From a virus, in IMG/VR virus record IMGVR_UViG_3300009537_000178, positions 1-23,909 of that record: DNA of 23,909 nucleotides. One strand, given 5' to 3'. Numbering within the stretch: the first letter of the stretch is position 1; every line of letters begins with the position of its first letter. The notes under the pieces are model-generated. The model was not told the origin of the DNA, searched no databases, and was given only the letters and a program-made list of their open reading frames with translations. The translations under genes were made by a program, and so were the position numbers. Below, piece by piece: positions 2,782 through 21,857 of the stretch.

Positions 2782-3468
2782 GTGTGGCGTAAGGGCACGA
2801 TAGCGGCGCTTCCCCTTATCGCAGTCGTCGCGTGTCATCCTCGTGCTAACTTTGTTGTTGCACCGCCGAAGCCGCCAGACAGTCTCCGCGACGTGGTTCA
2901 GTTGTTTGTGGATCACGGTGGCAGTACGACCCGGGGGCACGGGTTTGTCTCCGCCTACAGGCTCTATACCGCAGCCCACCTTCTACGGGGGGATCGGGAT
3001 AAGGTTTGGTGGCTGAGCAACGCCTCTCGGGGCGAGGCGAGAGTTGTTTGGGTGGACCGTGAGCGCGATATTGCCGTGCTGTCGCCATCGGCATCAGTGG
3101 GGGGAGAATTCTTACCCGCATCCATCCCGTTCGCCAACAGAGAGCCGATGCTGGGCGAGCGGTTGTGGTGGGTGGCCTTCGAGGATTACGGCGAGTTTGA
3201 TGACGTCCGGTCGATTCCGTACCATGGCTACTATCGTGGTCGTGGACCCGACGGAACGTTCATCATCGACGGAGCAACATATTGGGGTTATTCGGGCGGC
3301 CCCATCGTTATCGATGCCGGCGCGGTCGTCGGGTTCGCATCGCAGCTCGGAATACTGAAGCAGGGGGTTAAGGTCGCAATGACGCACGACAATCCGATGC
3401 GAGCACTTCTCTTGGTTCGCGCTGTAGGGTTCGGCAGATACCTGTCGGATCACCCCAAGAAACCGTGA
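2782..3468 (+). CDS. Trypsin-like serine protease, predicted lipoprotein
   Basis: This is a 228-residue protein with a chymotrypsin/HtrA-type catalytic triad in the right order: His66 in TAAHLL, Asp96 in RERDIAVL, and Ser171 in GYSGGPIV. The N-terminus has a basic start, a hydrophobic stretch and a lipobox-like VVAC (Cys18), so I infer export and lipid anchoring at the periplasmic face of a membrane. No PDZ domain follows the protease. The start is GTG 2782, the only start codon in frame after an upstream stop; AAGAG is very close and GGAGG (2753-2757) is distant, so the exact start is uncertain. Its stop overlaps the next start as GTGA. It sits among secreted proteins, not head genes, which argues against a prohead protease. 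It could process host envelope proteins, phage proteins or competing phage components; the substrate is unknown. Confidence 0.85.
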
Positions 3469-4157
3469 AGAGTCTGACCCCCTACCATTGGCGTCGTGTC
3501 GCGTTATGGGTGCTGCTCTTTGGCGCATTGACGTTGATGCTCGCTAGCTGTGGCGGCATCGACATCGACCATGTTGCGTGCATCGCCCTGCCGGGTCACA
3601 CCTACGAGTACGATTCAGATGAGGAGAGATTCGTATGTATACCCCCGCCACCAACGCCTACGCCAAGCCCTACGCCTGTCCCCACGGCCACCCCTACACC
3701 GCAACCGACGCCGACGCCGACTCCAGCCCCGCCCACCCCCTCACCCACACCTACACCGCAACCGACGGTTGTACCTACTCCGCAACCCACGCCGCTCCCG
3801 TCTTGTCTCGTTGAGTGGGAGTGGAAGTACATCTGCGAGCATCGGAGTTGTGACGTTCAGGTGAGCCCCGAGCCCGCCGAGTTCGGTGCGCCCGTGCAGC
3901 AGGTGGTGGAATCGCTTGACCGTAGACGTATTCGAGAGGATGATGTGCCCGCTTACGTCGCTGAGGTCGCAGAGGGATTGCGCGGGATGGGGTGGTGCGT
4001 GGCAACGAGAGCGGACGACCGTGACGTGAGTCACGACGAGGTGGGATTGTGGCGGGGGAAGCGCCGGGAACATTGGGACGTGTGCGTGAGTACGGGCGAG
4101 GGTTGGTGCACTACCGAGCACTACTTCCTTGCCGCAAGGGGCAAGCCGGCATCTTGA
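3465..4157 (+). CDS. Predicted lipoprotein with Pro/Thr-rich linker
   Basis: A 230-residue protein with an N-terminal hydrophobic segment ending in lipobox LASC (Cys29), so probably lipid-anchored outside the inner membrane. A short Cys-containing stretch (Cys39, Cys58) is followed by a Pro/Thr/Ser-rich linker of roughly residues 60-113. A C-terminal domain of about 115 residues then follows, with several cysteines ([22 protein letters not shown]) that suggest disulfides. The linker looks like an extended stalk holding the C-terminal domain away from the membrane. I do not recognise the C-terminal domain. GTG 3465 overlaps the protease stop, and the gene stop overlaps the next TTG start. An o-spanin is conceivable from the lipobox and prolines, but it is far longer than usual. 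A superinfection-exclusion or surface moron role is an alternative. Confidence 0.75.
3640..3806 (+). repeat. Low-complexity repeats encoding the Pro/Thr linker
   Basis: Degenerate short repeats of CCNACN codons, including several near-copies of acaccgcaaccgacg. They encode about 55 residues of alternating Pro and Thr/Ser. The tract length is likely to vary between relatives by slippage or recombination. Confidence 0.8.
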
Positions 4158-6609: not shown

Positions 6610-7064
6610 GTAATCGTAAACTGCTCGCCGCCGGTATGGTGGTGAGCTACGTTCTCTTGGTGTGGGTCACGGCGGGACTCGCATATAACAGGAAGTACAC
6701 CAGCGGTAGCACCGGGCTTTCCGTCACCACGTCGACACAGTACGTTGCGTTCGAGCACCACACAGACCTTGACGGGGACGGCGCCACCACCGACGAGGAC
6801 TTCTTGGCCAACACGGTAGTGATCCACAACGCCAATGCCGCTGCGGGCGACCCGTGCTACTACCTCCTCGTCAATGCCGACGGTGCCGCTATCGCAGCAA
6901 CGACGACGAACGGGTCACGTATCGCTGCGAATTCTACTCGGACCGAGGTGTTCGATCTCGCTTTCGGCGGGCAAGGCTGGAAGGGGATCGCTATGGTGTC
7001 GGCCGCGGGCGAAACCTGCACGGCATACGTCGATGCCTACGGTTCCGTTCCGGTGTCCCCATAA
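6606..7064 (+). CDS. Exported protein of unknown function
   Basis: A 152-residue protein at ATG 6606, overlapping the previous stop as ATGA. The N-terminus (LLAAGMVVSYVLLVWVTAGLAYN) is a signal peptide or anchor. The rest is beta-rich with Thr, Ala and Gly, a D-D-DGD-T-DE acidic stretch near residue 58 (HTDLDGDGATTDEDF) that looks like a calcium-binding dockerin-type loop, and two cysteines (DPCYY, ETCTAY) likely to form a disulfide. No family is recognised. It is the last of the envelope-directed genes; the next start is 29 nt downstream. Confidence 0.6.
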   Translation: MSNRKLLAAGMVVSYVLLVWVTAGLAYNRKYTSGSTGLSVTTSTQYVAFEHHTDLDGDGATTDEDFLANTVVIHNANAAAGDPCYYLLVNADGAAIAATTTNGSRIAANSTRTEVFDLAFGGQGWKGIAMVSAAGETCTAYVDAYGSVPVSP

Positions 7065-7093
7065 TCACTCTTCTCGCTCCCGCGCCAAAAGCG

Positions 7094-7954
7094 ATGGCGC
7101 GCCCCAAGTGGGACTACGCCAAGCAGCCCAAGGTTGCGGTGGAGTCGTGCGAACTCTGCCGCAATGACGTGTTCGCCGTCATTGGCCATCGTGACCGCTA
7201 CGGGTTCCCCGTGGAGACGCATTGTTGTACGTCGTGCGGACTCATCTTTCTGAATCCTCGCATGACGACCGAGGCGTACAACGAATTCTATCGGGACGTG
7301 TATCGCGACCTGATCGGATCGTACGTCGGCAGGGAATTCAGCCTCCAGTCGATGAGGGCGGGACAGGCGGCGTACGCGGAGCGGCTTGTGCGGCTATTGC
7401 GGGCGTTCCCCGTCAATGACGCCAAGACGCTACTCGACATCGGTGGGTCCACGGGTGTTGTGGCGTCCGTCGTTGGCTCCTCGTTCGGGCTCGCACCATT
7501 TGTACTTGAGCCTTCCAATGAGTGCAATGATCTGCCCGCCGGCGTGGATGCGATCCAGAGCTCGCTTGAGGAGTACGAAGCGGATGGCGGGTTCAGTCTG
7601 ATTCTCATGTGTCAGACGGTGGATCACCTCACCGACCTAATGGGTGGACTTCGGAAGATCCGGCACCTCGTTGCAGAAAACGGCGTATTTTTTGTGGACA
7701 TGGTGGACTTCGAGAAACAGGTGCTTGTCTGCAACAGCGTGGAAAAGGCGATCAAGATCGATCATCCGTACTACCTGACCGACTACACGATGACGAACGC
7801 GCTACGCCTTGCGGGATTCCGTATCGTTCGGAAGGATTATGCGGCAGACCGGCGCCATATCGGGTACGTGTGTCGCCCCCGCGACGTACGGGGCTTTTCG
7901 CCACAGGGTGCGGATGACGTGCTCCGCACGCTATGGCACGCGAAGGGGAGATGA
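7094..7954 (+). CDS. SAM-dependent methyltransferase with zinc-ribbon N-terminus, sugar-modification type
   Basis: A 286-residue class I methyltransferase. Cys19/Cys22 and Cys45/Cys48 form a zinc ribbon (CELC...CTSC) followed by GLIFLNPRMTTEAYNEFY. That N-terminal pattern is typical of methyltransferases found in polysaccharide and sugar-nucleotide gene clusters. Motif I is LLDIGGSTG (about residues 113-121), an acidic residue follows in VLEPS, and SLILMCQTVDHL is the motif IV region. A C-terminal part with Tyr, His and Asp follows. The gene ends overlapping the NeuA-like start (ATGA), so the pair is probably cotranslated, and I infer that it methylates the nonulosonate or another glycan building block. 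The start at ATG 7094 is preferred because upstream sequence overlaps the previous gene; no good ribosome binding site is visible. Substrate is inferred from context only. Confidence 0.8.
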   Translation: MARPKWDYAKQPKVAVESCELCRNDVFAVIGHRDRYGFPVETHCCTSCGLIFLNPRMTTEAYNEFYRDVYRDLIGSYVGREFSLQSMRAGQAAYAERLVRLLRAFPVNDAKTLLDIGGSTGVVASVVGSSFGLAPFVLEPSNECNDLPAGVDAIQSSLEEYEADGGFSLILMCQTVDHLTDLMGGLRKIRHLVAENGVFFVDMVDFEKQVLVCNSVEKAIKIDHPYYLTDYTMTNALRLAGFRIVRKDYAADRRHIGYVCRPRDVRGFSPQGADDVLRTLWHAKGR

Positions 7955-8631
7955 TCGTTGGACTCATTCCCGCAAGAGCCGGATCTCGGGGCATTGTTGC
8001 GAAAAACACTCGCCTGCTTGGCGGGAGATCGCTCATCGCCTGGGCCGCCAGCGCCGCCCTCGCCTCCGAATGCCTCGACGAAATCTTCGTCTCCACCGAA
8101 AGCGACGCCATCGCTCGTCTTGGTCGGCAGTGCGGCATGGGAATCCTCATGCGGCCAGCGCGGCTAGCGGACGACCACACGCCCATGCAGCAGGTCATCA
8201 CCCACGCACTGGACAAACTCGAATGGGAGCACGTGACCATTCCGAAGATTATGGTGCTGCTACAGCCCACGTCCCCGTTCCGCAACCCCGTGCGGATCAA
8301 TGAAGCGGTGGGGATGCTCCAGCGTACCAACGCCGATTGCGTTATGACGGTGGAGAAGATTCCGGACCATTACAACCCCGGGTTCGCATGGGCCATGGTC
8401 GACGACAAGATCGCGCCATGGGATTCCACCGACCCGCCCGTTTGCCGGCAGTACCTTACGCCGGCGTACAGCCGTGACGGTGGGGTGTATGCGTTCTCGG
8501 TGGAAAGTTTCAGGAGAAACAAGAACATCTATGGCGACGACTGCCGGGGTATCGTCGTCCCGCCCGCCGAAGCGTGCAATCTCGACGAGGAATCGGACTG
8601 GCTCGACGCCGAGCGGAGATTGAGAGGCTAG
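7951..8631 (+). CDS. neuA: CMP-nonulosonate (sialic acid) synthetase, NeuA-like
   Basis: A 226-residue cytidylyltransferase that would activate a nonulosonic acid with CTP to give the CMP-sugar. The family signatures are clear: IPARAGSRGIVAKN at residues 6-19 (nucleotide-binding loop), VSTES near 48-51, LLQPTSPFR at 103-111, SRDGGVYAF at 174-182 and a C-terminal NLDEESDW. The last motif corresponds to the metal-binding D-x-D of CMP-sialate synthetases, with Asn210 in the place usually held by the first Asp. Length matches single-domain bacterial NeuA. ATG 7951 is chosen for the ATGA overlap and because homology starts there; ATG 7933 is an alternative. CMP-Kdo synthetase is a possible but poorer fit, and the NeuB and NeuC homologs downstream support the sialic-acid reading. 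Confidence 0.88.
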   Translation: MIVGLIPARAGSRGIVAKNTRLLGGRSLIAWAASAALASECLDEIFVSTESDAIARLGRQCGMGILMRPARLADDHTPMQQVITHALDKLEWEHVTIPKIMVLLQPTSPFRNPVRINEAVGMLQRTNADCVMTVEKIPDHYNPGFAWAMVDDKIAPWDSTDPPVCRQYLTPAYSRDGGVYAFSVESFRRNKNIYGDDCRGIVVPPAEACNLDEESDWLDAERRLRG

Positions 8632-8639: not shown

Positions 8640-9137
8640 ATGCCCTACAAGGTTCCATGCCGCGCCCATTCGTCTCGGACGGGCGCACCGTGCGGGCGTC
8701 CCGCCCTCAAGGGTGGCTTCGTGTGCCGCTCCCACGGCGGTGCCGCGCCACAGGTGAAGGCAAAAGCGCGGGAGCGCTTGGCGGACATGATTGACCCCGA
8801 CCGTATCCTCCGCTCCGTTGCCGAGATCGCCCATTCCGACTTGCGCGACTTCTTCGACGAGAACAACAACCTCAAAGATCCCGCCCATTGGCCGGACCAT
8901 GCCGCCCGGACGTTGCAGACGGTGGAAGTGCTGAAGAGCAACAGGATCAGTGGGGACGGAAAGCAGGAGGACATCCTCAAGATCAAGACGTGGGACAAAA
9001 TGAAGGCGCTCGAATACCTGATGAAGCACAAGAACCTGTTCGAGCAGCACAAGAAGGCTGGCGCGGAGGCGTTCGCCAAGGCTACGGAGGCTCTCGCGGA
9101 AGGACGCAAGCGTGCCATGGAGCGCAATAGCGAGTAA
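8640..9137 (+). CDS. Terminase small subunit with CCCH-type zinc finger
   Basis: A 165-residue protein that would recognise phage DNA and load the large terminase for packaging. The C-terminal two thirds match the small-terminase pattern: IAHSDLRDFFDENNNLKDP (a widely conserved segment), a helix with TLQTVEVLKSNR, then KIKTWDKMKALEYLMKHKNLF. The N-terminus has a zinc finger with spacing C-x10-C-x10-C-x2-H (Cys7, Cys18, Cys29, His32). The C-terminal helix is rich in Lys, Glu and Ala. The large terminase lies two genes downstream. A strong AGGAGG precedes the start. The TAA overlaps the next ATG as TAATG. Confidence 0.88.
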   Translation: MPYKVPCRAHSSRTGAPCGRPALKGGFVCRSHGGAAPQVKAKARERLADMIDPDRILRSVAEIAHSDLRDFFDENNNLKDPAHWPDHAARTLQTVEVLKSNRISGDGKQEDILKIKTWDKMKALEYLMKHKNLFEQHKKAGAEAFAKATEALAEGRKRAMERNSE

Positions 9138-10171
9138 TGGACCTCCGTCAATTCTTTCACCGATTCACACAGCCATTGGCCAACCCTGAGGCTGTCGGGG
9201 ATTATTGGCAGGATGCATTGACGTCTCCACCGAGGGAGTATGGCGTGCCATTCCTACAGAACGCCCGCAACGCTGTGGGCGGTGCTGTTGCTGGCGGGCT
9301 TGAGGGTGTGGCGAACATGACGGACCCCGCGACGCTCATCAGCCTTGCCTTGTCCGGCGGCACCGCCCCGCAGGGTGCCACCCTGGGGCGGATGGGTATG
9401 CAATCGCTCAGGACGCTCGCCGGATACGGCGTGGATGCGCTGGACGTGGCGTCTAACGTGGATCAGTACGGCATCAATCCCATGACGCTCCTTGCCATTG
9501 CTGGTGGTGCGGCGGGAGCGAAGCGTGGCGGGCCTTCCGTGATGGGAATGGACGCCTATCACGGAACCACGGCGACAAGGTATGTTCCCGGCGAGCGTCA
9601 ACCCGGATCGGATTCGGCTCGTTTAGAGTTGGCCCAATTGGCCGAAAGACATAGTATTCGTGATCCAATGGACGTAGCCTCCATATTCGAGAGGTGGAAG
9701 GGGAGTGGTCAGGCATCTCAGTTTGGCGTCACGGACGCCGAGGTGGCGGCTGCGCGAAAACTGACAACGGAGGCTCGCGGATCAACTGCTGCCGGCAGAA
9801 GCGTGCCATCTTTCGATAAATTTGATGTGCCAGATACAAATGAACTTGGTATTCACGTCGGCACCAGGGAGCAGGCTAGCGTCGTTGGTGATGCCTTTCC
9901 GGTGGAGGTGGACCTAAAGACCCCCTTGCGCCTTCCAGACCTTGGGGTGTGGTCCCCCGAGCGCGTGATTGATGCGACGCGCAGGGCGGGTGTTGAGATT
10001 ACGGGGCGTGAGGCGCAGGGGGTCTTGGGCGGGAAGAACCCCGCCGCCGGCATGCGGGGCCTTTTGATGGAAAAGGGCTACGATGGAATCGTTTACGAGA
10101 ACGCGTCGGAGGGGGCCGGGGATTCGTTCATACTGTTTGAATCGAAACAGGTGCATTGGAAGGGGGAGTGA
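9137..10171 (+). CDS. ADP-ribosyltransferase-like phage protein (ART-PolyVal type)
   Basis: A 344-residue protein. Residues 1-130 are Ala/Gly-rich with hydrophobic stretches (VGGAVAGGLEGVA, TLISLALSGG, TLLAIAGGAAGA). From residue 140 a catalytic-looking domain starts with YHGTT, continues through FDKFD, GIHVGTREQA, FPVEVDLKTPLRLPDL, and ends with LLMEKGYDGIVYEN and SFILFESKQVHW. That order matches phage ADP-ribosyltransferase domains (ART-PolyVal), where H-G-T begins the NAD site and GYDG plus a final F-x-s-x-q-v strand close the fold. A region of about 70 residues after GTT (150-222) looks inserted and is richer in A+T. It overlaps its neighbours as TAATG and TGATG. The hydrophobic N-terminus suggests an injected or virion-associated effector; no target is known. 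Confidence 0.65.
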   Translation: MDLRQFFHRFTQPLANPEAVGDYWQDALTSPPREYGVPFLQNARNAVGGAVAGGLEGVANMTDPATLISLALSGGTAPQGATLGRMGMQSLRTLAGYGVDALDVASNVDQYGINPMTLLAIAGGAAGAKRGGPSVMGMDAYHGTTATRYVPGERQPGSDSARLELAQLAERHSIRDPMDVASIFERWKGSGQASQFGVTDAEVAAARKLTTEARGSTAAGRSVPSFDKFDVPDTNELGIHVGTREQASVVGDAFPVEVDLKTPLRLPDLGVWSPERVIDATRRAGVEITGREAQGVLGGKNPAAGMRGLLMEKGYDGIVYENASEGAGDSFILFESKQVHWKGE

Positions 10172-11903: not shown

Positions 11904-14134
11904 TGGCGCACACGGAACGGGGCTACGACAGCATCGTTGAGGAGGCTAAGGCTAGGTTCAAGTTGAGCCGTGACGCTGAGGCCAAGCAGAAGCAGCGGGA
12001 AACGGATGATCTGCGCTTTCAGGTGCCGGAATTCCAGTGGGATGACGCATCCAGGCAGCAGCGCACTGGGGGCTTCGTCTCTGGGGTGCCCCATCCGTTG
12101 CCGCCCCGCCCCATGTTGGCTATCCCGAAACTGGACCAGCCCATTCAGATCGTACTGAATCAGGAGCGACAGGCGCACCTTGGTGTCAACGTTCACCCCC
12201 TGTCGGAGGATTCGGACAAGGACACGGCGGAGGTGCTTCAGGGCCTGTACCGGAAGATCCAGCGGGACAGTCGCGCCCACATCGCCCGCTCATGGGCGTT
12301 CGAGCGAGCCGTCAAGGCTGGTCGTGGCGTGTACCGTATCGGCTACGAATTCGATGATGAGGGGGGACACCCGTTCGATCAGAAAATCACCATCTCTCGC
12401 ATCCTGTATCAGAATCAGGTGTACTTTGATCCGTCCGCGCAGGAGCCGGACTACTCCGACGGGAACTTTGCGTTCATCACTGGCTGGATACCCTATAGCG
12501 ACTTCCAGCGGTTGTATCCGAAGGCGAGCATCTCCGTTACGCATGACAATCCGTCCGACTGGGCCCCCACGGAGTCGGACATGCCCGATTGGGTCAAGAA
12601 CGACGAGGGCGAGGAACGACACATCCTCGTGGCGGAATACTTCCGGAAGGTGTACGAGAAGGACACGGTGTTTCTCATCCGCAGCCTAGAGAATCCGGAC
12701 GAGCCCACCCCACCCGTCGTTGCGCGCCCTGACGAGATCAAGAAGATACGTGAGGCGCTCACGGGCGGCGGCTACGAGATCGTCACTCACCGGGAGCGAC
12801 AGCGTCCCGTTATCGAGTGGCACGCACTTACGGGCGTAGAGGATGAGCCGCTCGATAGCGAGAGGTGGAACGGAAAGTACATTCCGCTCGTCCCCGTCAT
12901 TGGGCGTGAGCTTCAGCCATTCGACAATGAGCGTCGCTGGACCGGCGTCATCGGTCCCGCGAAGGATGCGCAGCGTCTGTTCAACTACTCCGCATCAGGG
13001 CTTGTCGAGATGGCTGCACTCGAACCTCGCGCCCCCTGGCTGATGGACTCGCGCCAGATCGAAGGCTATGAAGCCTTCTGGGCGCAGTCCAACACGCGCA
13101 ACTTCCCGTATCTGCCGTACAGGGCGACGAACGAGGGGGAGCAGCCCATTCCGCCGCCAGCGCGTGTGCAGGTCGATGCCTCACGGATGGGTCCGAACAT
13201 GATGCTCGTCCAGCAGGCGGACAACTTCATTCAGAGTTCAACCGCAATGTTCGACCCGGCATTGGGCAGGATGCAGACGGAACGTGAGCGTAGCGGAAAG
13301 GCGATCCAGTCGCTACAGGGCATGTCTGACCTTGGCAACTCACACTTCCTCAACAACCTTGCCGAGATCAGCATGGTCTATGAGGCCAAGGTTGTGTTGG
13401 ATCTGATGCGGACCGTCTATGAGCGTCCCGGCCGAATCGTGGAGATCCTGGACAACGAGGATAAGGGTCGGTCGATTACGTTGAATCAGGTTGCCAAAGA
13501 CGGCAAGATGTTCGACATCCGTAAGGGTGTGTACGGCGTGTCTGTCAAGGTGGGCCGGTCGTACCAGAGCAGGCTCGAGCAGGGGTCCGAGGAGATCGGT
13601 CAGATCCTTTCGAACAGTCCCGAACTCGTCCCCCTGATCGGTCCGACATACTTCAATTTCCGCGACTTCCCGGGAGCCCAGGAGGTTGCCGAAGTGCTCA
13701 CGAAGATGCGGGATCAGCAGTATCCATTCCTGCAAGAGAACGAGGGCGAGATGCCTTCGCCAGCACAGATGTACAATATGCTCCGGCAGGGTAAGCAGGA
13801 GAACGATCAGCTCAAGCAGGCGCTACAGAAGTTGCAGCAGGAGATTGCCACCAAGCAGGCGCAGCAGCAGGCGTCGATCCAGAACGCGGAGACGAAGGCT
13901 CGGACCGACCTCGCTATCGCCCAGTTGCAGGCGGCCGGATCGGCGCAGAGCAAGCAGATGGATCAGGCGTTGAAGCAGTTGGAGTGGTTGCGTGAGGCGT
14001 TCGAGAAGGACAAGGATCGCGATCACGAGGTGAACATGCAGGACGACGAGCAGGTTCACGAGATTGGCATGGAGAGGCTCAAGGCGGACCTTGCGCCAGC
14101 ACCACAGGGGGATGGGGATGGGGGAGAAGCGTAG
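11903..14134 (+). CDS. Portal protein, P22 gp1-like
   Basis: A 743-residue protein, close to the size of the P22 portal. The N-terminus holds a disordered charged stretch followed by the characteristic PRPMLAIPKLDQPIQIVLNQERQ segment and a region with LYRKIQRDSRA and ERAVKAGRGVYRIG. The middle has AKDAQRLFNYSASGLVEMAAL and SGKAIQSLQGM, characteristic of this family. The C-terminus is a long Gln/Lys/Glu-rich helix (about residues 620-735), consistent with the portal barrel and with interaction with terminase or scaffold. It forms the dodecameric DNA channel at one capsid vertex. ATG 11903 overlaps the terminase stop as TAATG; a TTG at 11888 is less likely. The end overlaps the NeuB-like gene by 17 nt. 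Confidence 0.93.
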   Translation: MAHTERGYDSIVEEAKARFKLSRDAEAKQKQRETDDLRFQVPEFQWDDASRQQRTGGFVSGVPHPLPPRPMLAIPKLDQPIQIVLNQERQAHLGVNVHPLSEDSDKDTAEVLQGLYRKIQRDSRAHIARSWAFERAVKAGRGVYRIGYEFDDEGGHPFDQKITISRILYQNQVYFDPSAQEPDYSDGNFAFITGWIPYSDFQRLYPKASISVTHDNPSDWAPTESDMPDWVKNDEGEERHILVAEYFRKVYEKDTVFLIRSLENPDEPTPPVVARPDEIKKIREALTGGGYEIVTHRERQRPVIEWHALTGVEDEPLDSERWNGKYIPLVPVIGRELQPFDNERRWTGVIGPAKDAQRLFNYSASGLVEMAALEPRAPWLMDSRQIEGYEAFWAQSNTRNFPYLPYRATNEGEQPIPPPARVQVDASRMGPNMMLVQQADNFIQSSTAMFDPALGRMQTERERSGKAIQSLQGMSDLGNSHFLNNLAEISMVYEAKVVLDLMRTVYERPGRIVEILDNEDKGRSITLNQVAKDGKMFDIRKGVYGVSVKVGRSYQSRLEQGSEEIGQILSNSPELVPLIGPTYFNFRDFPGAQEVAEVLTKMRDQQYPFLQENEGEMPSPAQMYNMLRQGKQENDQLKQALQKLQQEIATKQAQQQASIQNAETKARTDLAIAQLQAAGSAQSKQMDQALKQLEWLREAFEKDKDRDHEVNMQDDEQVHEIGMERLKADLAPAPQGDGDGGEA

Positions 14135-15122
14135 GACGTACATCATCGTAGAGATCGGGTGTGCCCACGAGGGGTCTCTCGCTATGGCGGCGGCCCTGAT
14201 GGGGGCCGTGGCTGACACGGGCGCGGATGCCGTCAAGTTCCAGTGCCATATCGCTGACGCGGAGAGCGGTCCCGATGAGCCATGGCGCGTTGATCCCGGT
14301 CGGGTGCGGCAGGACGAGTCGCGGTATGCGTACTGGAAGCGGATGGAGTTCACGGAGGACCAGTGGCGGCAGTTGCGTGACGAAGCCGACGAATTGGGAC
14401 TCGATTTCATCGTGTCGCCGTTCTCTGTCGTTGCCGTGGACATGATGGAGCGGGTTGCGGTCGATGCGTTCAAGGTCGCATCGGGGGAAGTGACGAATAT
14501 CCCCCTGCTTGAGCGTATCCGCGACACGGAGCTGCCCGTGTTCCTGTCTACCGGAATGAGTACGATAGAAGAGATCGACCGCGCCGTCAGTGCCGTTGGT
14601 CTGAACGACACGACCATCATGCAGTGTACGAGCATGTACCCGTGCCCGCCGAAGTATGCGGGACTTGGGCATATCGCTCGGCTGAAGCATCGGTATCGGA
14701 CCAAGGTTGGTTTCTCCGATCACTCCGGCGAGATCGCTGCCGGTATCGCCGCAGTGACGCTTGGTGCTGACGCGCTGGAGGTTCACATCCGGACGGAACC
14801 CCCGTGTGGGCCCGATGCTGATTCGTCGTTGACGGTGGACGAGATTGCAACGCTCGTCGATGCCGTGTCGTGGGTTGAGGCGGCGGAGACCCACTCCAAG
14901 GGCGCCGTGGCGGAGAAGTTGTCACGTGAGCGTGAAATCTTCCGTCAGTCGTTAGTGTATGCGCGGGACGTTCCCGCGGGCGAGGTGTTGGGTCCGGGCG
15001 ACGTAACAACGCGCAAGGCGGGACGCGGCCTCGCCCCCGACAGGCTACCGACGGTTTTGGGGAGAGCGGTGGGTTATCGCAAGGGCAAGGGGGCGCCCGT
15101 GGAGTGGACGGACTTCGCGTAA
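14118..15122 (+). CDS. neuB: Nonulosonate (sialic acid) synthase, NeuB-like, with SAF domain
   Basis: A 334-residue enzyme that would condense an N-acyl hexosamine, such as ManNAc, with phosphoenolpyruvate to form a nonulosonic acid. The TIM barrel shows VEIGCAHEG (12-19), GADAVKFQ (35-42), FKVASGE (118-124), VFLSTGMSTIEEI (141-153), MYPCPP (173-178) and GFSDHSG (198-204). Metal-ligand candidates are His202 in SDHS and His223 in EVH. A C-terminal antifreeze-like SAF domain (275-334; RQSLVYARDVPAGEVL...KAGRGLAP) caps the active site as in known NeuB dimers. Family-typical Asn-His at the first motif is Ala-His, and EKH is EVH, so it is divergent. ATG 14118 has AGGGGG six nt upstream; ATG 14112 is an alternative. 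It lies between portal and scaffold and is coupled to NeuC by TAATG. Confidence 0.92.
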   Translation: MGEKRRTYIIVEIGCAHEGSLAMAAALMGAVADTGADAVKFQCHIADAESGPDEPWRVDPGRVRQDESRYAYWKRMEFTEDQWRQLRDEADELGLDFIVSPFSVVAVDMMERVAVDAFKVASGEVTNIPLLERIRDTELPVFLSTGMSTIEEIDRAVSAVGLNDTTIMQCTSMYPCPPKYAGLGHIARLKHRYRTKVGFSDHSGEIAAGIAAVTLGADALEVHIRTEPPCGPDADSSLTVDEIATLVDAVSWVEAAETHSKGAVAEKLSREREIFRQSLVYARDVPAGEVLGPGDVTTRKAGRGLAPDRLPTVLGRAVGYRKGKGAPVEWTDFA

Positions 15123-16282
15123 TGAGGCGAATAGCGGTCGTAATCACCGCAAGGGCGAGCTACGCTCGTATCCGCTCCGTCCTGCTCGCGATGCGGGACG
15201 ATCCGGACTTCCTGCCGCTCGTCATCGTTGCCGGGTCCGCGCTACTGGACCGCTACGGTGACATCCGCCCCTTCATTGAAGGAGATGGGCTCCATGTCGT
15301 CCGCTCCGTGCCGATGGTGGTGGAGGGTGGTACGCCCGCGGAGATGGTCACGACCACGGGGCTCGGCATGATCCGTCTCGCGTCCGTCCTTGAGGATCTT
15401 CACCCCGACGCGGTCATCACCATTGCCGATAGGTACGAGACACTCGCCACCGCCACGGCTGCGGCATACATGAACATTCCGCTGATCCATCTTCAGGGCG
15501 GAGAGGTCACCGGATCCATCGACGACAAGGTTCGCAACGCCATCACGCAACTTGCCGACACCCACCTTGTAGCAACAGATCGCGCCTACGATCGGGTGTG
15601 GAAGATGCGCCATGATGGCGTCCACAAGGTCGGCTGCCCCTCTATCGATCTTGCGCGATGGGTAAGGCTCAACGCCGGGGACCGTTCGTTCGACCCCATA
15701 GAGCGCTACGGCGGGGTCGGCGCGGACATCGACTTTCAGTTCGACGACTACATCGTCGTGCTCCAGCACCCCGTTACGACGGAGTATGGTCGGGCGGGAC
15801 GGGATACGACCGAGACGCTTGGGGCTGTCCACGCCATGGGGGGTGTCCATGTAGCATGGATATGGCCCAATGTGGACGCGGGAACGGACGGAACATCCAA
15901 CGCTATCCGTCACTGGCGTGAACGTGAGGGGACGAAGAATATACGGTTCTTCAAGAATATGGCCCCGGTGGACTTCCTCACGTTCCTGTTGGGCTCTCGC
16001 TGCCTCGTCGGCAACTCCAGCGTCGGCATACGCGAATGCTCGTATCTTGGTGTCCCCGTGGTTAATATCGGAACCCGACAAAATGGACGGGAACGTGGGC
16101 CGAACGTGGTCGATGTGCCGGCGAATCACCGAGACATCACCGCCGCGATTAAGGCTCAGATGTCGGACGATGAGGTTCCCTGCTCCACCCTGTACGGGGA
16201 CGGGTATGCGGCGGAACGGATTCTTGACGTACTTAGGAAGGAACCCGAGGACGATATGGTGTTTAAGGAGGTGGTGGTGTGA
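15122..16282 (+). CDS. neuC: UDP-N-acetylglucosamine 2-epimerase (hydrolysing), NeuC-like
   Basis: A 386-residue GT-B-fold epimerase/hydrolase that would turn UDP-GlcNAc (or a related UDP-diamino sugar) into ManNAc (or its analog) plus UDP, giving the substrate for NeuB. Seen: VVITARASYARIRS (6-19), IADRYET (101-107), HLQGGEVTGSIDDKVRNAITQLAD (123-146), with Glu128 and Asp134, QHPVTTE (215-221), and LVGNSSVGIRE (295-305) followed by GVPVVNIGTRQNGRERGPNV. The HxGGE-T-x-G-x-D signature plus the ARASYARI start fits hydrolysing NeuC/LegG proteins better than WecB-type non-hydrolysing epimerases. It starts in TAATG overlap with NeuB and its GTGA end overlaps the scaffold. The natural substrate, and thus which nonulosonate is made, cannot be read by eye. 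Confidence 0.9.
   Translation: MRRIAVVITARASYARIRSVLLAMRDDPDFLPLVIVAGSALLDRYGDIRPFIEGDGLHVVRSVPMVVEGGTPAEMVTTTGLGMIRLASVLEDLHPDAVITIADRYETLATATAAAYMNIPLIHLQGGEVTGSIDDKVRNAITQLADTHLVATDRAYDRVWKMRHDGVHKVGCPSIDLARWVRLNAGDRSFDPIERYGGVGADIDFQFDDYIVVLQHPVTTEYGRAGRDTTETLGAVHAMGGVHVAWIWPNVDAGTDGTSNAIRHWREREGTKNIRFFKNMAPVDFLTFLLGSRCLVGNSSVGIRECSYLGVPVVNIGTRQNGRERGPNVVDVPANHRDITAAIKAQMSDDEVPCSTLYGDGYAAERILDVLRKEPEDDMVFKEVVV
16265..16271 (+). promoter_or_regulatory. Strong Shine-Dalgarno AAGGAGG for the scaffold gene
   Basis: AAGGAGG lies 7 nt before GTG 16279 and inside the end of NeuC, so the scaffold is translated independently of the coupling. Confidence 0.75.
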
Positions 16283-17481
16283 CGCAGGATGCGGGTGGGT
16301 CGATGGTTACGGTTGAGGGTGACGACGGCTTTACCGCCACGTCCAATGCGGAGACGCAGGAGGCCATAGCGGACGTCCTTAATGCCAATGTGGGGCGCGC
16401 CGGGGATGACGAACCGGAAACGGAGAGCACCGACGGTTCGCGTGGGCGCAGCAAGGATGGCAAGTTCGTTTCCGTTAGACCTATCCCGCCCGATAAACTG
16501 AAGGCCAAGGTTGACGAAAAAGCTGGACCTGACGATGACGTCAAGTCCGATGATGACGTCAAGCCAGACGAAGACGCCAAAGCCGAAGATGACGCCGAGG
16601 ACGAGCCGAAGAAGGAAGCTGGGGCCAAGGAAGAGCCCAAGGAAAAGCCCAAGGCGGAAGAGACGAAGGAGGAGCGGGACTCCAAGGCGAAGCAGCGCAT
16701 CCATGAGGTGATCGAGCAGCGGCGTCAGGTGGAGGCAGAGAACCGCCGCCTCCGCGCCGAGCTCGCCTCAATGACTCCCGCCCAGCGGGCGCAACCCCCA
16801 GCGACCGATACGGCGGGCTCCGATGGATTACCCCCGCCGCCGAAAGAGGCGGATTTCCAGGACTACTCCGATTACGTTCGCGCCCAAAGCGAGCATAGCG
16901 CCCTCGTGGCCATGCAGCGGATGCTGAGTGGGGCGCAGCAGCATCAGCAGAAACAGGAGTTCGCGGAAAAGGTTCACGGTGCGTTGGGGGCGTTTCACGA
17001 CGGAATCGAGAAGGCCGGCGGCGAACAGTTCCTCAGATCACTCCCCCCCGAGATCACAACCATTCAGCCGTCATTTATTGTTCGGCCAGACGGTAGTGTA
17101 GAATCGTTACCGCAAAATGAAATTGGTCCCCTCAATGTTCTTGCGGACGAAATCATCGCCGCGGGACCGAAAGGACCGACCATTCTCAAGCATTTGTCTG
17201 AAAATCTCGACACATATCGGCGGATCTCCAGCGCCGCAAGTCCGGATGCGGTCTACCGGATACTTGGTGGAATAGAGGCTCTGACTGCTGCAACTGCTGG
17301 CAACCCGGCACCATCAGTCCCTCGCTACGAACCAAAGGCGAATCCGCCCGTCAAGCCAGTGACGGGATCGCCGTCTGTCCGAGACGATGACGTTTCCATC
17401 AATGATGAGATCAGTTTCGAGGAGCATGTCCGCCGTGAGAACGAGCGGGAACTCAAAAAGCGTCGCGCCCGTCTCGGATAG
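16279..17481 (+). CDS. Scaffold protein (head assembly)
   Basis: A 400-residue, highly charged, helix-rich protein in the P22 gp8 position, immediately before the coat gene. The N-terminal third holds alternating acid and Lys repeats (residues about 75-140; the DNA repeats gatgacgtcaag at 16534-16545 and 16552-16563). A coiled-coil segment follows (RIHEVIEQRRQVEAENRRLRAEL), then a helix-rich middle and a basic C-terminus (ENERELKKRRARLG) that resembles the positively charged coat-binding end of P22 scaffold. No cysteine is present. It would guide procapsid assembly and then leave the head. GTG 16279 overlaps the NeuC stop and is preceded by AAGGAGG. Assignment is by position and composition, since scaffolds diverge fast. 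The stretch at 17080-17160 is poorer in G+C. Confidence 0.8.
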   Translation: MTQDAGGSMVTVEGDDGFTATSNAETQEAIADVLNANVGRAGDDEPETESTDGSRGRSKDGKFVSVRPIPPDKLKAKVDEKAGPDDDVKSDDDVKPDEDAKAEDDAEDEPKKEAGAKEEPKEKPKAEETKEERDSKAKQRIHEVIEQRRQVEAENRRLRAELASMTPAQRAQPPATDTAGSDGLPPPPKEADFQDYSDYVRAQSEHSALVAMQRMLSGAQQHQQKQEFAEKVHGALGAFHDGIEKAGGEQFLRSLPPEITTIQPSFIVRPDGSVESLPQNEIGPLNVLADEIIAAGPKGPTILKHLSENLDTYRRISSAASPDAVYRILGGIEALTAATAGNPAPSVPRYEPKANPPVKPVTGSPSVRDDDVSINDEISFEEHVRRENERELKKRRARLG

Positions 17482-17512: not shown

Positions 17513-18742
17513 ATGGCCAATACGATTGTCACGTCTACCTACGTGACACGTGAGGTCGCCCGGTACTTCAGCAACAACCTCAAGGGTGCGAGTAACTTCA
17601 ATCGTAGCTACGATTCGCAGTACTCGCAGGGTGGGGCCAAGGTCGGTAATACGGTCAAGGCCCGGCTCCCGCAGAAGTGGGAAGTTCGCGATGGACAGGC
17701 GTACTCACAGCAAAACCTGCTCGACGAAACCGTTGACATCGTTCTGAATCATCAGAAGGGCGTCGATTTCGGCTGGTCGAGTTCGCAGGCGACGACGGAT
17801 CTCGATGAGATCAAGACTCGCTACATTCAGCCCGCAGCGGAGACGCTGGCGAACAGTGCCGATAGTGTCGCGATGGAGGATGTCTACAAGGACATCTACA
17901 ACTCCGTCGGCGTGCTCGGTACGACCCCCGCCACCGCACTCCTGTGGCTTCAGGCTGGCGTGAAACTGGACGACGGCGCATCGATGGAGAACGGTCGCTG
18001 TGCGGTTCTGGATCCGCTCGCTTGCGCCACGTTGTCGAACGCGCAGCAGGCGTTGTTCCACCCCGGACCCGCTATCAGCGAGAACAACAGGACGGGGCAG
18101 TTTGCCCGTAACCAGTTGGGCGTTGATGATTGGTATCGGGACAATAACGTCCCTCGCTTCACGTCCGGAGATCTGGATTCGGGCAACAACACCCCACTTG
18201 TGAATGGTGCGGGCCAGACCGGCTCAAGCCTCATCACGGATGGGTGGGATGCCGGTGCGGCTCCGGTCAAGGGTGACATCTTCACTCTTGCCGGCGTGAA
18301 CCAGGTCAACCCGCTCTCGAAGGTCGACACTGGTCGTCTCCAGCAGTTCGTTGTCACGGCGACACCGACCGCCGGCGCGTCGATCACGTTCTCGATCTCC
18401 CCGAGCATCATCACTTCGGGTCCGCTCCAGACCGTTACGGCAAGCCCGGCGAACAACGCCGTTCTTACCATCTGGAACATGACCGCCGGTTCCACGTTGG
18501 CGCCGACGACCTCCCCGCAATCGCTCCTCTTCCATAAGGACTTCGCAGCGTTCGTTATGGCAGACCTCGTGATGCCCAACGGTGGGGCTCGCGCCACGCG
18601 CGTGAACTCCAAGCAAATGGGTATCTCCATTCGCTTTGTCGAACAGTTCGACATCGCGACGGACCAGAACCAGAATAGGCTCGATATTCTGTTCGGCTCA
18701 GCTACTCTCCAGGCGCGTCTCGCCTGCCGAGTGGTTGGTTAG
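17513..18742 (+). CDS. Major capsid protein, P22 coat-like
   Basis: A 409-residue protein with the P22 coat (gp5) pattern: N-terminal NTIVTSTYVTREVARYFSNNL, then VGNTVKARLPQKWEVRDGQAYSQQN, a helical segment with TLANSADSVAMEDVYKDIYN, a loop region, and a C-terminal ADLVMPNGGARATRVNSKQMGISIRFVEQFDIATDQNQNRLDILFG. P22 coat is slightly longer (430). It builds the icosahedral HK97-fold shell. AGGAG is 6 nt before ATG 17513, fitting a highly expressed gene. The 18240-18540 region (about residues 245-345) is rich in Thr, Ala and Ser and could be a surface-exposed insertion or domain; exposed Thr/Ser could also be glycan acceptors. The stop TAG is part of the next ribosome binding site. Confidence 0.93.
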   Translation: MANTIVTSTYVTREVARYFSNNLKGASNFNRSYDSQYSQGGAKVGNTVKARLPQKWEVRDGQAYSQQNLLDETVDIVLNHQKGVDFGWSSSQATTDLDEIKTRYIQPAAETLANSADSVAMEDVYKDIYNSVGVLGTTPATALLWLQAGVKLDDGASMENGRCAVLDPLACATLSNAQQALFHPGPAISENNRTGQFARNQLGVDDWYRDNNVPRFTSGDLDSGNNTPLVNGAGQTGSSLITDGWDAGAAPVKGDIFTLAGVNQVNPLSKVDTGRLQQFVVTATPTAGASITFSISPSIITSGPLQTVTASPANNAVLTIWNMTAGSTLAPTTSPQSLLFHKDFAAFVMADLVMPNGGARATRVNSKQMGISIRFVEQFDIATDQNQNRLDILFGSATLQARLACRVVG

Positions 18743-18752: not shown

Positions 18753-19556
18753 ATGGCATCTCCTACCGGTCTTACTCGTACCACCCTCAGCGCAGCACTG
18801 AACGATTCCGACGCGGAAATCTATGTTGCGTCCACAACCGGATTGGCTAACGGCAGACTGATTTACATCAGGGGCGAAGTTATCAAGGTGTCTGACACCG
18901 CGAGCACTCTCGCCAACCCCATCGGCGTCGTGCGTGGCTATGACGGTACGCGCACCAAGTCCCACCCGTCCGGTGCGAAGTTGTATCACGGTGCGCCCGA
19001 TGTGTTCAAGAGTCTTTATAGCAATGCTAAGGGGCTCTTTGGAGACTCGGGTACGTTCCCGCAGTACCTCATCCCGGGCGCGAAGGCGACCGACGATGAC
19101 GGTAACGAGTACGTCATGGTTGAGGCAAGTGCCCAAATCTACACTGGCGTTACTTGCGCGATCAGCCTTGACGGGAACTTCACCGCAGCCGTCCACACGG
19201 ACTCCCTCCGTGGTTCTATCGGTGTCGCTGTCGAGCAGATCGACTCCACCGAATTCGGTTGGTTGCAAATCTACGGCTATCACGCTGCGGCACAGAACGC
19301 CTCGGGTGATAGCGCGGCCACCAGCACACAGGTGGTTGTTGGTGCCACGTCGGTGTCCAGTCCTGCCGCAGGGATGGCCACTATCGCGGGCACCACGGTC
19401 GAAGCGGCGCTCATCTATGGCATGTACTGCGTAGGTGCGGCGTCGTCCGCAACCACGTCGGCCGCGTCGTTCGCGGGCGTGTCGGTCCCCGTTTGGCTGC
19501 ACTACCCGTACGCGACCGGTATCCATGACTTCACTCTGGACCCGACCTCCTCGTAA
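18753..19556 (+). CDS. Virion structural protein, capsid decoration/head fibre candidate
   Basis: A 267-residue protein directly after the coat gene. Its first 85 residues follow a common phage structural module: TRTTLSAALNDSDAEIYVASTTGL, then GRLIYIRGEVIKVSD, then GVVRGYDGTRTKSHPSGAKLYHG. The second half contains YLIPGAKATDDDGNEYVMVEAS and a Thr/Ser/Ala-rich C-terminal region (about residues 185-245). This fits a particle-surface or head-associated protein; it might equally be a tail or head-tail protein. No signal peptide. It has a strong AGGAGG and is likely abundant. A 14-nt gap separates it from the next gene. A Thr/Ser-rich, surface-exposed protein is also a candidate glycan acceptor, an inference from composition. 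Confidence 0.7.
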   Translation: MASPTGLTRTTLSAALNDSDAEIYVASTTGLANGRLIYIRGEVIKVSDTASTLANPIGVVRGYDGTRTKSHPSGAKLYHGAPDVFKSLYSNAKGLFGDSGTFPQYLIPGAKATDDDGNEYVMVEASAQIYTGVTCAISLDGNFTAAVHTDSLRGSIGVAVEQIDSTEFGWLQIYGYHAAAQNASGDSAATSTQVVVGATSVSSPAAGMATIAGTTVEAALIYGMYCVGAASSATTSAASFAGVSVPVWLHYPYATGIHDFTLDPTSS

Positions 19557-19570
19557 GGGATGGGCTCTTA

Positions 19571-20506
19571 GTGGCCGTCATCGTAAAGCCCGGGGGGGAT
19601 TCGCTTCCCCCTCGGGTCGTTTCTCGCAAAACCGACAAGGTTGGGTTCGTTGGCAGCCATAGATCATCCCTGGCTGCTGCACCATGGGGCGACCCATCGT
19701 GGACGCTGTGGGGTCACGCCTCTTCGCGTGGCTTCTACGAAAGGGAGTTGGATGCGTACTTCGATCTGCACATCAAGGAGCGTTGGTCCCGTGGCGGAAA
19801 AAAGGGTGCGCACTATCCACTTTGGCTGAAGCGCAATACCGTGCCGGTCTACATGCAGGAGCGTTACCCGGAGGTACCAGCGAGTATCCGGTATCCGCGG
19901 GAGCGCATCCTTCAAGAGTTCAACGTCGCGGACAATCGTCGTTACTTCCCGAATCAGGTAGCGTGGATGACAGCATTGGCGCTCGCTGAGGGCTACACCA
20001 CCATTGGCATGTTCGGCATCAGTTATGCGTCGCGTGGAGAGTATGCGATCCAGCGTGGGGGAGCCGAGTTCTGGATCGGTTTCGCTGCGGGACGAGGGGT
20101 GCGCATCGTTCTGCCCGAGGCGTGTTCGTTGCTACGCGAACCCGCGGCGTTGTACGGGTACGAGTCGCACGACGAAAGGGGCGTATTGATAGAGGAGTAT
20201 CAGGAGAAGCGGTTCAAGCCGCACGAGACGATCAGGGTATTGAAGCCCGGAGAAACGTTCACCAAGGCGAAGCCTCCGGCGCACATAGCCATGGAAATTG
20301 AAGAGGAAGAGCGCGTGCACCCCCGTCCCGATTGGGCGAGGGTTTTCCAGCATAAGGAGATAGAGGATGTCAGACGACAACGACGTGCAGGGTGGCGTTC
20401 TAGCCAACCCCGCATCCGGGTACTCGAAGGAGATGGCGAAGTGGGAGATGTTTCCAAACCAGCACACGGGTGTGCGTGGTCCGGGTCGTCCATACCAGTT
20501 CCGTGA
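19571..20506 (+). CDS. Rossmann-like phage protein, candidate sialyltransferase/DUF115-type enzyme
   Basis: A 311-residue protein starting at GTG 19571. A Rossmann-type start KVGFVGSH (23-30) is followed by APWGDPSWTLWGHAS (37-51), FDLHIKERW (64-72), HYPLWLKRNTVPVYMQERYP (81-100), FPNQVAWMTALALAEGYTTIGMFGISY (126-152), GEYAIQRGGAEFWIGFAAGRGVRIVLPE (157-183) and LYGYE (194-198). The segment with a helix, ALA-x-GY, a beta-strand and FGIS-Y resembles the core of GT42 sialyltransferases and DUF115/Maf-like proteins (CstII-like A-I-ALGY...GIDFY). The family is known to me as a phage protein of unsettled function, so transferase is an inference strengthened by NeuA/B/C in the same operon. The last 46 residues overlap the next gene and are probably not conserved. 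A GC hairpin lies within codons 7-16. Confidence 0.6.
   Translation: MAVIVKPGGDSLPPRVVSRKTDKVGFVGSHRSSLAAAPWGDPSWTLWGHASSRGFYERELDAYFDLHIKERWSRGGKKGAHYPLWLKRNTVPVYMQERYPEVPASIRYPRERILQEFNVADNRRYFPNQVAWMTALALAEGYTTIGMFGISYASRGEYAIQRGGAEFWIGFAAGRGVRIVLPEACSLLREPAALYGYESHDERGVLIEEYQEKRFKPHETIRVLKPGETFTKAKPPAHIAMEIEEEERVHPRPDWARVFQHKEIEDVRRQRRAGWRSSQPRIRVLEGDGEVGDVSKPAHGCAWSGSSIPVP
19589..19616 (+). promoter_or_regulatory. Very strong GC hairpin in the 5' end of the candidate transferase gene
   Basis: CCCGGGGGGGA and TCCCCCTCGGG pair over 11 bp (one G-U) around a 6-nt loop. The following sequence TCGTTTCTC is only weakly U-rich. It could act as an attenuator or partial terminator after the abundant coat and decoration genes, or as a translation or mRNA-stability element. 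It lies in codons, so it may also be neutral. Confidence 0.4.
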
Positions 20507-21137
20507 GTTTCCGCTCATGCTGTATCGCGCCCTTCCGTTCGGACCGAACAGCAAGATTCAGTGCATGGCGCAGTCCCCGCACCCCTACCAGATCAAGGAT
20601 CCCGAGGAGCACCGGTTCGCATCCATGGCGGCGGAGGAGTTCACGAAGTCTTGTCAAACGATCGTGAACGACGAGCAGGAGCTTCAGCGGGCGTTCGAGA
20701 GCGGGTATCGAAAGTCTCCCCAGGATGCTGTCGATGCCGCCATGGCGCGCGAGGACTCCATCGCACGGGCCGCAGCGGAGAGGGCGTACGACGACAGGAA
20801 CATCAGCGATGCGGCGAAGTTGGAGGTGGCAAGGGCCGAGGCCGCGGCAGACGGAAAGCACCTTCCCGAGATCCCCGAGTCGCCGGTAGTCAAGCGCGTG
20901 TCGGTCGCCAACAGCGACACTGTCCCCGGCAAGCGGTGCAAGGGTGTCTATGGCGAGCCCCCGTGTGAGGGGAAGACGCCAAAAGAGTACGACTACTGCG
21001 ATGCCCACGCACGCCTTCGTCCCGCCGGAGCCCCCGGCTCGCCTCAGTGTGTCGGTGCGACCGCGAAGGGCCCCCGCTGTTCCCGTCGGGCTCGCGAGGG
21101 GTTCAAAACCTGCGGGCTCCACAAAAAGGCGGGATAA
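20367..21137 (+). CDS. Phage protein with two C-terminal CCCH-type zinc fingers
   Basis: A 256-residue protein at ATG 20367 with AAGGAGATAGAGG just upstream. Residues 1-70 are conserved-looking and polar (PYQFREFPLMLYRALPFG). The middle is a long Ala/Glu/Arg helix (about 75-170). The C-terminus holds two zinc fingers: C-x8-C-x10-C-x2-H (CKG...PPC...YDYCDAH) and C-x9-C-x10-C-x2-H (CVG...GPRC...FKTCGLH). This spacing closely resembles the finger of the small terminase. It lies among head genes and might be a nucleic-acid-binding virion or assembly factor. The overlap with the preceding frame (140 nt) is larger than any other in the window. The stop lies directly before the next ATG. Confidence 0.7.
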   Translation: MSDDNDVQGGVLANPASGYSKEMAKWEMFPNQHTGVRGPGRPYQFREFPLMLYRALPFGPNSKIQCMAQSPHPYQIKDPEEHRFASMAAEEFTKSCQTIVNDEQELQRAFESGYRKSPQDAVDAAMAREDSIARAAAERAYDDRNISDAAKLEVARAEAAADGKHLPEIPESPVVKRVSVANSDTVPGKRCKGVYGEPPCEGKTPKEYDYCDAHARLRPAGAPGSPQCVGATAKGPRCSRRAREGFKTCGLHKKAG

Positions 21138-21857
21138 ATGGCAACAGTCCAAGGCGCAATCGTCACGCCAGCCCTTCAGGATCTTGGCGTAATCTCGTCC
21201 GGGGAGACTCCCGACTCGGAGGATTCCGCGCTAGGACTCGCCCGCCTCAACCGCATGATCGACACATGGGCTGCGGAGAGGCTTACGATCTATCACACTA
21301 CGCGGACCACGTGGACCATCACGGCATCCGACGGATCGTACACGCTCGGTGCGACCGGAGATATTGCTATCGTCCGTCCCGTGTTCATCGACTCCGTGGG
21401 GTACATCGACACCAGCGCTGACCCCGACATCGAGCTGCCACTCCACCCATTGACCGTTGAGGACTACGCTCGGATCAGTCAGAAGGCACAAACCGGCACG
21501 TATCCGACCTCGTGGTACTACAACCCCACGTTCGCTAACGGCGCAATCGAACTATGGCCGGTGCCCACGTCCACCACGCTCTCCGGGGTCATCTATGCCC
21601 CGACAGCGCTAACGTCGTATGCGGCGCTGACGACGACGTTCACGCTCCCGCCCGGATACGAGGAGGCGCTCTCCACCAACCTAGCTGTCCGTCTCGCGCC
21701 CGCGTTTGGACGATCCGTGCCGAAGGAGCTTCACGATCAGGCGGCGCGCGGGGTCGAACTCATCAAGCGTGGCAACAGTCGGATGCGCGACCTTCTCGTG
21801 GATGCCGCTATGATTTTCCACGGGTCTGGCGCGTACAGTATCGACACGGGCCCATAG
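21138..21857 (+). CDS. Head-to-tail adaptor, P22 gp4-like
   Basis: A 239-residue protein in the gp4 position between coat and gp10-like genes. The order of motifs fits the family of DNA-packaging/tail accessory proteins: ALQDLGVISSGETP, LARLNRMIDTWAAERL, YTLGATGDI...RPVFIDS, ELPLHPLTVEDYARI, AIELWPVPT, then LPPGYEEALSTNLAVRLAPAFG and a C-terminal helix with AARGVELIKRGNSRMRDL. It would add to the portal ring after packaging and connect to the tail. It is longer than P22 gp4 (about 166), as in many environmental homologs. ATG 21138 directly follows the previous TAA. Confidence 0.8.
   Translation: MATVQGAIVTPALQDLGVISSGETPDSEDSALGLARLNRMIDTWAAERLTIYHTTRTTWTITASDGSYTLGATGDIAIVRPVFIDSVGYIDTSADPDIELPLHPLTVEDYARISQKAQTGTYPTSWYYNPTFANGAIELWPVPTSTTLSGVIYAPTALTSYAALTTTFTLPPGYEEALSTNLAVRLAPAFGRSVPKELHDQAARGVELIKRGNSRMRDLLVDAAMIFHGSGAYSIDTGP

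Follow-up and report, generated by a model that had tools for sequence, protein, structure and literature searches.

Maf proteins transfer nonulosonates (NulO) to flagellin and are the closest functional analogue of the protein described here. Transfer of a NulO to a structural protein in the cytoplasm, as carried out by the MptE-like/DUF115/Maf group (PF01973), is the job that we propose for our candidate, and the two share a Rossmann core of the same general type; unlike that group, the candidate lies far under the Pfam cut-off, forms a compact single domain and has the virion rather than flagellin as its proposed target. The GT42 enzymes CstII and Cst-I of Campylobacter and Pasteurellaceae likewise use CMP-Neu5Ac made by Neu genes. 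The bacterial sialyltransferases known belong to families GT38, GT42, GT52 and GT80, and no bacterial legionaminic acid (Leg) transferase had been reported (PMC7439481). Protein-acting nonulosonate transferases are hard to recognise, and the study of the Bacillus subtilis sps genes, which encode the legionaminic acid pathway of the spore crust, named none: SpsA and SpsB were excluded and the CMP-Leg transferase was left unidentified (PMC7439481). The sps system resembles the proposed context of the candidate in supplying a CMP-NulO for a protein-rich surface layer, and no member of the candidate family is named there (PMC7439481). In mycobacteriophages, capsid and tail-tube proteins are glycosylated by enzymes that the phage itself encodes (Che8 gp110, Corndog gp38, Myrna; PMC12363180). 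Such phage-encoded enzymes acting on the phage's own virion proteins correspond to what is proposed here, and the passages on them describe neither a phage NulO pathway nor a NulO glycan (PMC12363180). Nothing relevant to sialic acid synthesis by phages was found in the papers searched.

The window, that is, the whole stretch of DNA that was analysed, is a 23.9 kb virus record (IMGVR_UViG_3300009537_000178) from a tailed phage, in which head genes and NeuA, NeuB and NeuC genes all lie on the same (+) strand. NeuA is a NeuA/PseF-type CMP-nonulosonate cytidylyltransferase (7933..8631; PF02348 E=1.1e-16; TIGR03584 E=1.2e-36, under its cut-off), NeuB a nonulosonate synthase with a SAF domain (14064..15122; PF03102 E=4.3e-59; SAF E=2e-7) and NeuC a hydrolysing UDP-GlcNAc 2-epimerase yielding ManNAc (15104..16282; TIGR03568 319 bits, cut-off 235.9; PF02350 E=5.5e-58). 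NeuB matched TIGR03569 at E=7e-78, under the equivalog cut-off; NeuB and NeuA thus best matched NulO synthase and cytidylyltransferase models, both under equivalog cut-offs. The first codons of NeuB overlap the portal gene, and its true start is perhaps near 14118. Upstream of NeuA lies a Methyltransf_23-type methyltransferase (6854..7954; PF13489 E=1.1e-9 and synteny; true start probably nearer 7100), a possible sugar-modifying enzyme; genes of this type adjoin NeuC/NeuA in two other loci as well (L018 and L027).

The head module comprises a scaffolding protein (16279..17481; phrog_8865 E=9.8e-19), a P22-type major capsid protein (17513..18742; PF11651 E=5.5e-27; phrog_283, a PHROG major head protein, E=2.5e-67), a decoration-like protein with 21% Ser+Thr (18753..19556), the candidate (19571..20506), an uncharacterised ORF with weak family matches that overlaps the 3' end of the candidate and has Cys/His pairs close to its C terminus (20367..21137), and a head-tail adaptor of the SU10 adaptor/Ad3-like type (21138..21857; PF24175 E=6.9e-9; phrog_12985 E=3.9e-42). 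The terminase and portal were assigned by reading ORFs. Three further ORFs caught our attention: a DNA methyltransferase-like ORF with the motif TSPPYWGLRDYG (1274-2320), a small protein that combines a lipobox-like 'LMLASCGG' with a long Pro/Thr repeat, a possible alternative surface glycan acceptor (3465-4157), and an ORF reading 'YHGTTATRY ... GIHVGT ... GYDGIVYEN' (9137-10171), which gave the impression of a phage ADP-ribosyltransferase-like protein. A second obvious transferase for CMP-sialic acid was absent from the window.

The candidate is encoded by a + strand ORF of 311 aa with a GTG start, and the same start is seen in relatives, as L018 and L024 begin 'MAVKM..' 4 nt past the upstream stop. 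Its position directly 3' of the coat and decoration-like genes is as the initial annotation had described. The ORF had no match in Pfam or PHROG, and single-sequence searches with it (Pfam, PHROGs, PDB sequences, cultured phages) came back nearly empty. When the viral collection was scanned twice, with the nearest relatives of the candidate as queries, more than 100 homologous loci emerged, in which G28, P38, W44, W47, H67, A137, G149, E157, Q161, G176 and Y195 are near-invariant, in Neu-linked and unlinked members alike; the family is therefore conserved and a chance ORF can be ruled out. Members are mostly 180-330 aa long and form a single compact domain. They occur mostly in phages, several of them unrelated, and also in a Bacillota group. 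A gene family that has no entry in Pfam or PHROG gains a name in this way. The window copy deviates from the family consensus in having Ser for Asp at 151 and Pro for Thr at 127. Its last 38 residues may be spurious, since the model gives residues 274-311 no fold (pLDDT<50) and their codons overlap the following gene out of frame. The ORFs of more than 700 aa in L173 and L176 resemble a member with a spurious N-terminal extension, and there the Ser/Thr-rich upstream gene sits in another frame of the same stretch. One member, from a cultured Microcystis phage, is annotated as a 'type 11 methyltransferase'; we rejected this name, as no Pfam methyltransferase matched.

An AlphaFold (AF2) model was built from 50 sequences. 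The model revealed a GT42-like Rossmann domain (residues ~20-200), a partly helical region (201-273) and a disordered end (274-311); the pLDDT of the core was >90, with 152 residues at 90 or more. The top match of a Foldseek search against the PDB was 1ro8_B, the complex of CstII with a substrate analogue (E=9e-4, prob 1.00). Of the ten top PDB matches, nine were CstII or the Campylobacter alpha-2,3-sialyltransferase related to it, and several of these structures contained CMP or an analogue. The candidate is thus placed by computation in the fold class of GT42 CstII, and not in an unrelated fold; the TM-scores of 0.34-0.46, with incomplete overlap, indicate a shared fold class and not close kinship. 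The core motif ALALAEGY/FGISY, from which a likeness to GT42 and to DUF115/Maf proteins had originally been proposed, is real: helix 129-139 (the WMTALALA region) is followed in the model by strand 144-148 (TIGMF) and 'FGISY'. The resemblance to GT42 was borne out by the Foldseek matches. That to DUF115/Maf held for the type of Rossmann core, and Foldseek also matched an MptE-like protein of a phage; it failed at the level of PF01973, which matched one member at E=0.17 (12 bits against a gathering cut-off of 34.6).

We also compared the family with GT42 at the sequence level, where no match to GT42 or DUF115 was significant. The core motif of the window protein aligns with 'TSGVYMCAVAIALGYKEIYLSGIDFY' of CstII-type enzymes, and the candidate motif 'YMCAVAIALGYKEIYLSGIDF' with GT42 'YMLALAIxEGxxEIGLWGVDM'. 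In an hhalign comparison with a Pasteurella GT42 protein, taken from a plasmid record, 'NQVAWMTALALAEGYTTIGMFGI' of the family paired with 'TSGVYMCAVAIAMGYTDIYLTGI' (E=3.5e-4, from a single pairwise comparison). When a family profile was compared with PDB sequences, CstII was the best match at a non-significant E=0.37-0.55, and another CMP-Neu5Ac sialyltransferase was among the matches at E=1.4. Eight members weakly matched the PHROG 'alpha-2;3-sialyltransferase' (best 0.015). PF06002 (CST-I) did not match the window protein, and its best value among 55 members was E=0.18, in one member; phage and MAG records contained no PF06002 proteins, which is little informative since the control genomes contained none either. 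The catalytic residues of CstII are His188 and Arg129. Within the ~30 aligned columns, T/S-S/N at 127-128 and Y158 could match CstII residues, and no counterpart of R129 or H188 was identified in the family. The candidate differs from GT42 in lacking a significant whole-protein sequence match and an identified Arg129/His188 counterpart, in its own invariant W44, W47, H67, E157 and Q161, and in its mostly phage distribution and pairing with virion genes. H67, E157 and Q161 are no more than candidate catalytic residues. In two members an intein-like insert interrupts the core motif, in both cases separating 'GVDM' from 'EEY'; one looks complete (L192:14884-16506, ending ..HN|T), and of the other the start portion is present, cut by the contig end (L043:3601-4221). 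Inteins favour active sites, and the inserts would point to the core motif as a possible active site. Since the proteins stay under every sequence cut-off of the families tested, we describe them as a new GT42-like family and not as GT42.

Among the first family loci, several unrelated phages had NeuA/B/C genes. As evident from a reverse search, this linkage exceeded the controls: 23 of 80 viral contigs selected solely by NeuB carried the candidate family (~19 once near-identical pairs were merged), against 0 of 80 random viral contigs (712 kb, picked by an arbitrary 15-mer) and 0 of 80 contigs with GDP-mannose dehydratase (1.37 Mb, including five NeuB genes), with a Fisher p=1.9e-8 against each control. 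Three of the 23 were already known from the forward search. The family gene was on the NeuB strand in all 23 contigs and downstream of NeuB in 21, at a median gap of 3.4 kb, and NeuA directly adjoins it in L015-type and L178 phages. The GDP-mannose dehydratase control rules out chance linkage in phages rich in sugar genes. The NeuB alignment used for selection (A4) had been seeded with NeuB from family-bearing contigs; an artefact of seed similarity was rejected, because the fraction was steady down the ranking and 11 of the 40 lowest-ranked NeuB loci still carried the family.

A tree of 82 members showed 15 label changes for Neu linkage, at least six of them forced by well-supported branches, and the linkage is thus scattered over the family; the tree describes distribution and not an unbiased frequency, as some rows were found through NeuB, and 'unlinked' may also mean not covered, as the contigs are fragments. 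One well-separated clade (30 of the 82 rows), mostly short members together with the Microcystis phage, had zero linked Neu genes, in agreement with the early caution that the sialic acid connection may suit some members only. These proteins perhaps use host CMP-sugars such as CMP-Kdo or host CMP-NulO, or have another function. We noted that L047, L050, L053 and related viral loci form a large clade of 180-200 aa members without linked Neu genes, and that in L002 the short-clade member immediately precedes a head-tail adaptor-like gene. Among 50,697 cultured phage records, only 3 had NeuB relatives, and this biology is therefore almost invisible in isolates.

Three Bacillota MAGs (L313, L314 and L315) provided all the cellular loci that the genome scan yielded, with two tandem family copies in L313 and L314 and one in L315. 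In these loci NeuB accompanies a NeuA fused to a KdsC/KDN-9-phosphatase-like domain (the domain was tested in L313); the family genes are divergent from NeuB/NeuA, and the neighbourhood is not phage-like. In the class to which one of these MAGs belongs (that of G009), comprising 73 genomes, the family was present in 10, NeuB in 12 and both in 9. NeuB was thus found in 9 of 10 genomes with the family and in 3 of 63 without it (Fisher p=2e-8, although related genomes are not independent), and in 10 of 10 family-bearing genomes NeuA or NeuB stood beside a family gene, a near-obligate association. Several of these genomes had an extra copy as well, around which the short stretch that was read contained no Neu gene. 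Errors of MAG binning are possible and, given the recurrence in ten genomes, an unlikely explanation. We also observed that the bacterial members (L313:8924-10478, L314:7175-8503 and L315:6310-7041) have Arg-rich C-terminal tails and lie opposite NeuA-phosphatase/NeuB; their role is perhaps at a surface layer.

The NulO genes beside the family varied. NeuC-type (sialic) genes were present in the window and L027, PseI exceeded its cut-off in L037 and L046, L046 also had WbuX/WbuZ-type (acetamidino-type) amidation genes under their cut-offs, and the Bacillota loci had the KDN-phosphatase-like fusion. The candidate family is the constant element across NeuC-, PseI- and KDN-phosphatase-type loci, as expected of a step that uses CMP-NulO. 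As a separate observation, L035, L037 and L046 contain an apparent acetamidino-nonulosonate pathway (WbuX-type amidotransferase, HisF/WbuZ-like, PseI-type NeuB and GNAT/radical SAM genes).

Within two genes of the family we found terminase, head-tail adaptors and coats from a number of families unrelated to one another (P22 coat, HK97 type PF05065, PF19821 and PF13252). The immediate upstream neighbour is rich in Ser and Thr, with a median of 17.9% compared with 12.1% in other genes of the same loci (p=8e-6). All contigs of the window lineage in which both genes are readable have the transferase gene immediately behind the decoration gene, with the distant relative L454 as the one exception; L445 and L455 break off before the pair can be read. 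The pair persists in L030 and L452, which have non-P22 coats and no P22-type coat match. In L454 (5379-8047), two tandem decoration genes related to that of the window are followed, as read in the sequence, by a methyltransferase and a GT4-like glycosyltransferase, which suggests that glycosylation modules are swappable and that another system was apparently put in. The upstream gene of the other main lineage encodes a ~150 aa family, mostly with 20-35% Ser+Thr and the motif 'TSIHGRRLGL', in one to three copies; in the sets searched, it occurred exclusively in loci with the transferase. A model of this protein showed a beta fold at moderate confidence, with the capsid spike of phage Pa223 as the best PDB match (E=1.3e-4) and baseplate and tailspike domains next. 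Two or three tandem copies of the spike-like Ser/Thr-rich protein were seen near the transferase in L035 (16659-18340), L130, L136 and L034. We infer that these decoration- and spike-like upstream proteins are the acceptors. The acceptor is the weaker half of the case, and it rests mainly on gene pairing, because structural beta proteins are often Ser/Thr-rich anyway; given the closeness of that pairing, a virion target is the best guess.

Taken together, we propose, with a probability of roughly 0.7, that the candidate, with its GT42/CstII-like Rossmann fold, acts as a CMP-nonulosonate transferase and sialylates virion proteins. It would be the transfer step that, according to the initial annotation, was missing from the NeuA/B/C pathway, a role that both fold and linkage support. 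In the proposed pathway, NeuC would convert UDP-GlcNAc to ManNAc, NeuB would condense ManNAc with phosphoenolpyruvate to sialic acid, and NeuA would activate the sialic acid with CTP to CMP-sialic acid; the candidate would then bind this donor and transfer the sugar to a virion protein from its own late module, most likely the Ser/Thr-rich decoration protein whose gene lies immediately upstream (18753-19556). A CMP-nonulosonate donor is very probable, and a virion protein is a likely acceptor; for the decoration protein itself, the odds are slightly favourable.

All of the donor evidence would fit equally well a CMP-nonulosonate transferase that acts on LPS, capsule or an outer-membrane lipoprotein at the surface of the host, or on a surface lipoprotein encoded by the phage, and so alters the host, for example to block superinfection. 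The lipobox-like protein of the window could be glycosylated in this way, and the Bacillota copies lie outside any phage head module. Against this stand the location of the gene, no more than two genes away from coat, scaffold, adaptor or terminase genes in unrelated head modules, and its near-obligate pairs with decoration- and spike-like genes, which suggest late expression and a virion partner, and we regard action on such surfaces as unlikely. More doubtful still is a GT42/MptE-like nucleotide-sugar binder with a different task, such as a Kdo transferase fed by host CMP-Kdo, a DNA-base glycosyltransferase or a donor-binding accessory protein. The clade of short versions and the Microcystis phage without linked NulO genes, the weak MptE-like match of one member and the existence of virus-encoded DNA-modifying glycosyltransferases, cited in PMC12619734, are compatible with such a role; the linkage, however, is specific to NeuA/NeuB and absent from the GDP-mannose dehydratase pathway, the bacterial copies sit in a minimal NeuB-NeuA locus, and no DNA-hypermodification gene was noticed in the window. 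It is highly improbable that the candidate modifies the nonulosonate or CMP-sugar ahead of an unseen transferase, as its co-occurrence with NulO genes, methyltransferases and amidation genes might suggest, because the closest structures in the PDB belong to transferases, many of them in complex with CMP or an analogue, the Bacillota loci show no other transferase gene beside NeuB-NeuA and the family, and a modifier should suit one NulO, whereas the family is found with Neu-, Pse- and KDN-type genes.

As a CMP-nonulosonate transferase acting on the virion, the candidate family would provide a compact putative transferase and, encoded with it, a putative acceptor. We give about even odds to the broader proposal that it is a previously unrecognised nonulosonate transferase family travelling in portable modules, composed of NeuA/B/(C) or Pse-type genes and a dedicated Ser/Thr-rich acceptor gene, which would build sialic-, pseudaminic- or KDN-type capsid coats independently of host sugars. 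It is probable that some phages decorate portions of their own virions with sialic-acid-type sugars; if this is true, phages carry a full sialic acid pathway for their own particle, which would bear on the interactions of the virion with hosts and surfaces.
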